Source: an uncultured Prochlorococcus sp. (GTDB taxonomy: Bacteria; Cyanobacteriota; Cyanobacteriia; PCC-6307; Cyanobiaceae). Taken from it: a stretch of 64,000 nucleotides of DNA. Positions 5,976-8,097 of this stretch are shown here, one piece after another (positions within the stretch are counted from its first letter, which is position 1; every line of letters begins with the position of its first letter). The notes under the pieces are model-generated. The model was given only the letters and a program-made list of their open reading frames with translations. It was not told where the DNA came from and made no database searches. The DNA lies in assembly GCA_902576415.1 (NCBI GenBank), contig CACGVZ010000001.1:1-64000 (forward strand), written 5' to 3'. The position numbers and the translations under genes were made by a program.

Positions 5976-6454
5976 TTAAGCAGTTCCACAAAATGCTACT
6001 TCTGGAAACTTTAACTTGGCTTCCTCTAATTTTTTGGTCTTTCCCTCTTCTTGCCAATAATTTATTACTTCTGTAGCTTTATTCAATATCTCAACTCTCT
6101 CATTATCTGTAATCCAACCTTTATTTTCTAATTCACTTTTTAATTTTTCCCAAGCATCATCTCTTGGCCAAAAATAATAAGCAGTTAGGGGGCTTGGCCC
6201 CCCCCCCCTACTATTTGATCAACGGCTAAAGCAACATTATCAGGTAACCACAAAACTTTAATAATGAATCTTCCTTCGTCAGGTTTGGGGGTATAACCAG
6301 TAGGTACGCCATCTTCATCTATTGTTGCTGCTGCTAAAACAGCTGTAGCACCCATCATTCCTGTATTGGGTGAAGAATTTTTAGAGTTTGGCGTATCACT
6401 TTTTTGTTCTTTTTTTTCTGTTGAATTTTGATTTAATTTATCTGATGAAGTCAT
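5976..6454 (-). pseudogene. ycf65: Ribosomal protein PSRP-3/Ycf65 homologue, frameshifted at a G11 tract
   Basis: Cyanobacterial and plastid-specific 30S subunit protein. The ORF track shows an 89-residue ORF (6185-6454) that runs into a stop just after a run of eleven G on the minus strand (6198-6208). Past the run, another frame continues the family sequence without interruption: [16 protein letters not shown], then [20 protein letters not shown] and [10 protein letters not shown], ending at the stop at 5976-5978. Nine or twelve G would restore one frame; twelve gives 159 residues. The first 35 or so residues are low complexity (Ser, Lys, Asn). The downstream 73 codons are intact, so this is either a very recent lesion, a sequencing error in the homopolymer, or a gene expressed by slippage. 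Confidence 0.88.
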
Positions 6455-6560: not shown

Positions 6561-6719
6561 TTATCTATCATGCGAAACCTGATAAAAATCATAAATTGTA
6601 GCTTCTAATGCATCCCAAAGATCTTTAGGTATATCGTTTTCTTCTGCAAACATCCCAAGCTGACTAGCTAAGCCTCTTGCCTGGGATAGTTTCGAATCGT
6701 ATGAATCTGACTTATTCAT
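6561..6719 (-). CDS. Small conserved-type hypothetical protein, 52 aa
   Basis: An ORF too short for the supplied track runs from ATG at 6719 to TAA at 6561: MNKSDSYDSKLSQARGLASQ, then a mostly helical segment, ending YDFYQVSHDR. The composition is soluble, with no membrane segment. It lies 52 bases after the pepP stop on the same strand and before ycf65. The reading frame fills a gap that otherwise holds nothing and looks protein-like (balanced charge, Trp and Tyr present), so I think it is real. I do not recognise a function. Confidence 0.6.
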   Translation of the reverse strand: MNKSDSYDSKLSQARGLASQLGMFAEENDIPKDLWDALEATIYDFYQVSHDR

Positions 6720-6771: not shown

Positions 6772-8097
6772 TTAAAACTCTAAATCAGAAATTTCTTTTA
6801 GTGCAGCAATACTTAAAACTTCTGGGTTTTTATCTTTGACCAGAACATCATCTTCTATTCTTATCCCAATGCCTTTCCATTTCTCTTCAATAAGAGGTTG
6901 TCCATCGGGGACTGGTATCCTGTCGCTTATATATATACCGGGTTCTACTGTAAGAATCATGCCATTTTGTAATGGCACTTCATAGTCTCCCATTCTGTAT
7001 GCTCCAACATCATGAACATCCAAGCCGAGCCAATGACCAGTTCTGTGCATGTAAAGATGTTTATAAGATTGATTCTCAATTATCTCCTCAGTACTACCCG
7101 CTAATAAACCAATTTCTTTTAATCCTTCTATCAAAATTGTTAAAGCAACATTATGCACAGCACTAGAATTAGATCCAGTTATGGCACTTTTAATTGCTTT
7201 TTTCTGGGCACTTAATACAATTTCGTAAATTACTTTCTGCTCTTCAGAAAATTTTCCACCTATTGGGATAGTTCTTGTTATATCTCCATTGTAGTAATCA
7301 GTTAGTGAGCAGCCAGCATCTATCAACAATAAATCTTCCTTTTTCAGTGGTGAATTATTTGAGGTGTAATGCAAAATACATGCATTATCTCCTGAAGCAA
7401 CAATAGAGTTATATGCTGGTCCTCTCGCCCCTTTTTCCAAAAAGAATCCCTCTAGAAGCCCCTGAATTTGTCTTTCATTTTTCTTTGATGAAATAGATTC
7501 TCTTACTAGTTCATGAGCTTCTGCTGAAATTTGTATAGCCTCTCTCATTCTCTTAATTTCAAATTCACTTTTAATTAATCTCATCTCATTTAAATAAATT
7601 TCTGGAGATTTTATAGAATTTCCACCAATGCCTAATCTTGAGCGATTTTCAAGTTGTTGTGAAAAAATTCCCAGAATTATTTTCTCAACTGATGGATGCT
7701 TACCAATAGAAAAAACAAGTTCATCAGAACCATTTATATAGGCTGGGAGTAAATCTTTTAATTCGTTTATTGAGTGAGCCTTATCAGCATTAAACTCTTT
7801 TTCAGCGCCTTCTAAACCCCATCTAAAGCCATGCCAGACTTCGCTAATAACATCTTTAGGAGCAACAAACATAATAAATCTCTCTCCTTTTGGCTTATGC
7901 GATAAGAAAAGAGCGATTGCATCTGGCTCATCGAAACCGGTTAAATACCAAAAATTACTATCTTGTCTAAAAGGATATTCACAATCAGCATGATGCTTTA
8001 CGAGACTAGCACCAGGGATAATAGCAGCTTTTCCATTTAATTTATTGAGGAAGATTTCTCTTCTTTCTTCAAAAACTTTATTTTTAGGTTTAAACAT
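6772..8097 (-). CDS. pepP: Xaa-Pro aminopeptidase (M24B)
   Basis: Metallopeptidase that removes N-terminal residues preceding proline, in the cytoplasm. The 441 residues comprise an N-terminal aminopeptidase-P domain (about 1-150) and a C-terminal pita-bread domain. All five metal ligands are visible in order: Asp in LLIDAGCS, Asp in YNGDITR, His in HRTGHWLGLDVHDVG, Glu in LTVEPGIYI and Glu in IRIEDDVLV. Length and layout match proteobacterial PepP. It is divergent from the DUF21/CBS gene across 73 bases, which probably hold both promoters. Confidence 0.96.
   Translation of the reverse strand: MFKPKNKVFEERREIFLNKLNGKAAIIPGASLVKHHADCEYPFRQDSNFWYLTGFDEPDAIALFLSHKPKGERFIMFVAPKDVISEVWHGFRWGLEGAEKEFNADKAHSINELKDLLPAYINGSDELVFSIGKHPSVEKIILGIFSQQLENRSRLGIGGNSIKSPEIYLNEMRLIKSEFEIKRMREAIQISAEAHELVRESISSKKNERQIQGLLEGFFLEKGARGPAYNSIVASGDNACILHYTSNNSPLKKEDLLLIDAGCSLTDYYNGDITRTIPIGGKFSEEQKVIYEIVLSAQKKAIKSAITGSNSSAVHNVALTILIEGLKEIGLLAGSTEEIIENQSYKHLYMHRTGHWLGLDVHDVGAYRMGDYEVPLQNGMILTVEPGIYISDRIPVPDGQPLIEEKWKGIGIRIEDDVLVKDKNPEVLSIAALKEISDLEF

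Follow-up and report, generated by a model that had tools for sequence, protein, structure and literature searches.

A run of eleven G that splits a Prochlorococcus PSRP-3 gene is probably a technical length error

The PSRP-3/Ycf65 reading frame breaks at G11

Does a ribosomal protein gene that changes frame at a run of eleven G reflect the living genome, or the way in which that genome was sequenced? The question arises on the minus strand of the window (the whole stretch of DNA analysed, 64,000 nt). The 5′ part of the PSRP-3/Ycf65 gene (6209–6454) comprises 82 codons, from an ATG at 6454 to ...VDQIV, and is colinear with intact relatives. It leads into the eleven G (6198–6208), a site at which all listed relatives have nine in-frame bases (GGN GGN GGN), and the 3′ part then continues in another frame (5976–6197) for 73 codons and a stop (5978–5976). 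Read on in its first frame, the gene gives CCAAGCCCCCTAA after the run and stops at 89 aa, this off-frame tail occupying 6185–6197 and ending at a TAA (6187–6185).

The C-terminal fragment matches PF04839 (PSRP-3_Ycf65) across the full profile (positions 1–48 of 48; 2.2e-27, 95.5 bits, against a curated cut-off of 25 bits), and also matches solved PSRP-3 chains. Family membership is therefore secure by profile; the single uninterrupted frame of the relatives is missing from the assembly. The initial annotation had the identity, coordinates and frames right, and its arithmetic, that 9 or 12 G would restore one protein, holds. Judged from its sequence, the gene itself is ordinary and would function as a normal small-subunit ribosomal protein gene; we judge the split at G11 to be a technical break. 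The interval separating the PSRP-3 gene from the next one (6772–8097) holds a short open frame (MNKSDSYDSKLSQARGLASQLGMFAEENDIPKDLWDALEATIYDFYQVSHDR; 6561–6719, minus strand).

Relatives keep nine in-frame bases at the site

Of 200 genomes of the genus covered by a protein search, 168 have the PSRP-3 gene. Contig-end cases aside, the listed matches are open and mostly 155–161 codons long (about 158), with a few longer open frames. Two-part matches in three genomes (G047, G085 and G180) proved to be contig ends near residue 41, away from the tract. Most of the named relatives are single-cell genomes; a few, among them MIT 9107 and MIT 9401, are isolates. A gapped pattern laid across the tract matches 156 of 266 genomes, its length being 29 bases (GGN GGN GGN) in every listed match except the window, which has 31. 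Tract length is likewise constant over 112 aligned loci, where the longest G-run is 6; from a further alignment of the tract, rows L031 and L009, which were on the wrong strand, were left out. The third bases of the three glycine codons are mixed among the listed relatives (about 150 genomes plus the 112 aligned loci). The nearest relative by flanking DNA (L085, 90%) reads GGGGGAGGG at the tract, which one A-to-G substitution would turn into pure G9.

Since all listed relatives have nine in-frame bases, the pure G tract is, on sequence comparison, private to this genome and its length otherwise fixed; a private tract would be neither a conserved slippage site nor a contingency locus. This bears on two proposals of the initial annotation. 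One was phase variation of the tract, with ribosomes of mixed composition as the result; all that favours it is that a long mononucleotide run sits inside a gene. Tract length does not vary between the genomes compared: the listed relatives, which are other species, all carry nine interrupted bases, and a housekeeping ribosomal gene would be an unusual contingency locus. We regard phase variation as extremely unlikely.

The other proposal was polymerase slippage on the G run, by which a single gene would yield both a complete and a truncated protein; slippage of the ribosome would have the same outcome. In its favour, slippage is known at long homopolymers in general, and the frame after the run is fully intact here; against this, a slippery tract is not conserved across the listed relatives, none of which has a G-run longer than 6 at the site. 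Transcriptional slippage is further disfavoured because the homopolymer insertions seen in E. coli and Buchnera transcription all fall in A or T runs and none in G or C runs (PMC5574713).

Breaks recur at G tracts of the same assembly

The assembly, a Prochlorococcus draft, totals 1.29 Mb over 50 contigs and is 76.7% complete. The eleven G of the PSRP-3 gene form the sole G or C run longer than 6 within the window, giving four overlapping matches to G8 against a mean of 0.25 in shuffles. Across the genus such runs are commonplace (G≥8 in 259 of 266 genomes), contrary to the initial view that they are exceptional. Poor assembly in general is ruled out as the cause: a near-complete relative, G108, has 54 proteins with a match in the window, and 53 of them are whole, PSRP-3 being the one split. 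Runs of A≥8 (n = 20) and T≥8 (n = 5) inside matched coding sequence of the window cause no breaks, so the effect is tied either to G or to longer runs. A hairpin was also rejected; the G run can pair with the C5 that follows, yet shuffled sequences fold equally well (z = 0.43). The corresponding value for the hisS tract is z = −1.67.

Six G≥8 runs occur in the assembly, four off frame and two in frame. The off-frame tracts lie in PSRP-3 (G11), hisS (G9), mfd (G10) and a ubiE/menG homologue (G8); the in-frame tracts are both G9, one in a methyltransferase-like gene and the other in a gene read as NeuB/SAF-like. Other conserved genes of this assembly (hisS, mfd and ubiE/menG) thus carry off-frame long G tracts, as an error would predict. 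For hisS and mfd, both halves match consecutive parts of one NCBIfam equivalog, and it was this match that led us to replace recG by mfd as the identity of the gene broken at G10.

Two of these tracts were followed through the genus. A pattern across the mfd tract matches 142 genomes, the listed ones having 32 bases except G160 and G264 (one base more) and G000 (two more); all three exceptions have pure G tracts at the site. At the ubiE tract, all ten listed genomes of deviant length have one base more and none is shorter, and all ten are less than 90% complete, although taken on its own the comparison is not significant (p = 0.11).

A real, private frameshift would have arisen by a DNA polymerase slip on G9 in the cell or its recent ancestors, which then survived on the remaining protein or without PSRP-3. 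A pure G9 would be prone to slippage, and no listed relative shares the tract, both of which fit. The event would, however, have to be one of four like breaks in a single genome, the others being in hisS, mfd and ubiE, and a living cell is not expected to manage without HisS. We consider a private frameshift unlikely.

Near-complete genomes stay in frame

For a wider comparison, 2.4-kb stretches holding a G run were taken, the minimum run being G≥8 or G≥9 for near-complete genomes and G≥9 for the others, mostly drafts; a run was scored as in frame if the long reading frame that enters it stays open beyond it. At G≥8, the near-complete genomes gave 32 runs in frame and one apparent exception (L154), which, as read from the translations, is the end of one gene followed by another gene. 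Coding G≥9 runs are in frame in 11 of 11 cases from near-complete genomes versus 4 of 15 (11 off) from the others, mostly drafts (Fisher p = 0.0002), with completeness standing as a proxy for culture versus single cell and one member of the draft set (G160) being 96% complete.

Off-frame G9–G10 runs were seen in drafts G154, G190, G124 and G070 (L179, L182, L183, L187, L191, L194 and L208), the genes affected being rplF, lipA, dnaJ, aroK, a copper-type P-ATPase, typA and chlD. A conservative recount takes only draft breaks confirmed by family on both sides, namely those in these genes, and drops three near-complete tracts whose short open frame could be chance; it leaves 8 of 8 in frame against 4 of 11 (p = 0.013). 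Off-frame tracts are therefore a feature of drafts and not of near-complete genomes, again as expected of errors.

The reading frame appears to be under selection, because none of the long coding G runs examined in near-complete genomes disrupts it. Neither a cell lacking HisS nor a lineage lacking L6 would be expected to survive, and the off-frame lengths in drafts therefore most likely arose after sampling.

The same data return to the proposals of the initial annotation. Neither phase variation nor slippage on the G run sits well with hisS and mfd being broken alike, or with off-frame tracts confined to drafts. Slippage would require the off-frame calls to be real, and near-complete genomes, in frame at all coding G≥9 runs, suggest that frame is not freely corrected; we hold it to be very unlikely. 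A broader possibility is that wild Prochlorococcus carry frequent off-frame G tracts in essential genes (hisS, rplF, chlD and PSRP-3) and survive through frame correction at the level of RNA or on the ribosome. Such tolerance is not seen in the near-complete, probably cultured genomes, and we find it highly improbable.

A different kind of homopolymer was encountered in 14 near-complete Prochlorococcus genomes, where a C run of 8 to 16 (coding strand), usually with an A run after it, lies in the spacer upstream of a gene read as rpoA (near position 1200 of L141, L145, L157, L162, L171, L221, L222, L224, L227, L229, L231, L234, L238 and L239). The spacer follows the end of rpsK; both genes were read by translation only. 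In contrast to the PSRP-3 tract, this homopolymer is both conserved and variable in length, and drafts have it too.

A technical length error best explains the locus

We conclude, with a probability of roughly nine in ten, that the in-frame G tract of an intact PSRP-3 gene was lengthened or miscounted technically, and that the deposited frameshift is not present in the living genome. A length error is favoured because nine in-frame bases are fixed in every listed relative; because, of the assembly's five further G≥8 tracts, three likewise disrupt conserved genes; because breaks in drafts strike genes that cells need (rplF, chlD, lipA); because the ubiE genomes of deviant length all have an added base and a completeness below 90%; and because the window has no other split gene, its A and T runs being intact. 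A sequencing error was among the explanations first offered, to be recognized by a fixed in-frame tract in relatives; the presence of that tract in all those listed supports it.

The course of events may have been as follows. In the living cell, the three glycine codons would have become GGG GGG GGG. Run length would then have changed, from 9 to 11 G or from 12 to 11, at one of the technical steps: whole-genome amplification from the single cell, library preparation, Illumina sequencing or assembly. That the assembly is a single-cell genome we infer from its form and its named relatives. Single-cell work on this genus amplified DNA by MDA or WGA-X, sequenced it with Illumina technology and assembled it with SPAdes in its single-cell mode, the benchmark indel rate being 3.0 per 100 kb (PMC6122165); the pipeline cited there ran on a NextSeq 500 (PMC5519541).

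On this reading, the claim that a mutable tract makes ribosomes heterogeneous no longer stands. Long coding G runs are often off frame in draft, probably single-cell, Prochlorococcus genomes, and at the one tract counted genus-wide (ubiE) only added bases occur among the listed genomes. Calls of pseudogenes or gene loss at such tracts are untrustworthy without reads, and genes in drafts could be wrongly called pseudogenes.

Comparison with known systems

Poly-G phase-variable loci share with this locus a poly-G of about ten inside a gene; they differ in that the PSRP-3 tract is absent from relatives, shows no length polymorphism and sits in a housekeeping gene. Transcriptional slippage sites likewise have a homopolymer at a frame break with the downstream frame preserved, whereas the PSRP-3 tract is not conserved and consists of G, not A or T. 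The protein itself is familiar: the C-terminal fragment resembles PSRP-3/Ycf65 (cS23; PF04839) as solved in PDB 2kt9 and in the chloroplast ribosome chains 5x8p_w, 5mmj_w and 28jw_v, and relative to PSRP-3/Ycf65 of other genomes the gene is the same in length and order, differing by assembled G-run length alone. The locus also resembles homopolymer errors in amplified or short-read drafts, with off-frame lengths confined to long G runs and seen in unrelated conserved genes of drafts.
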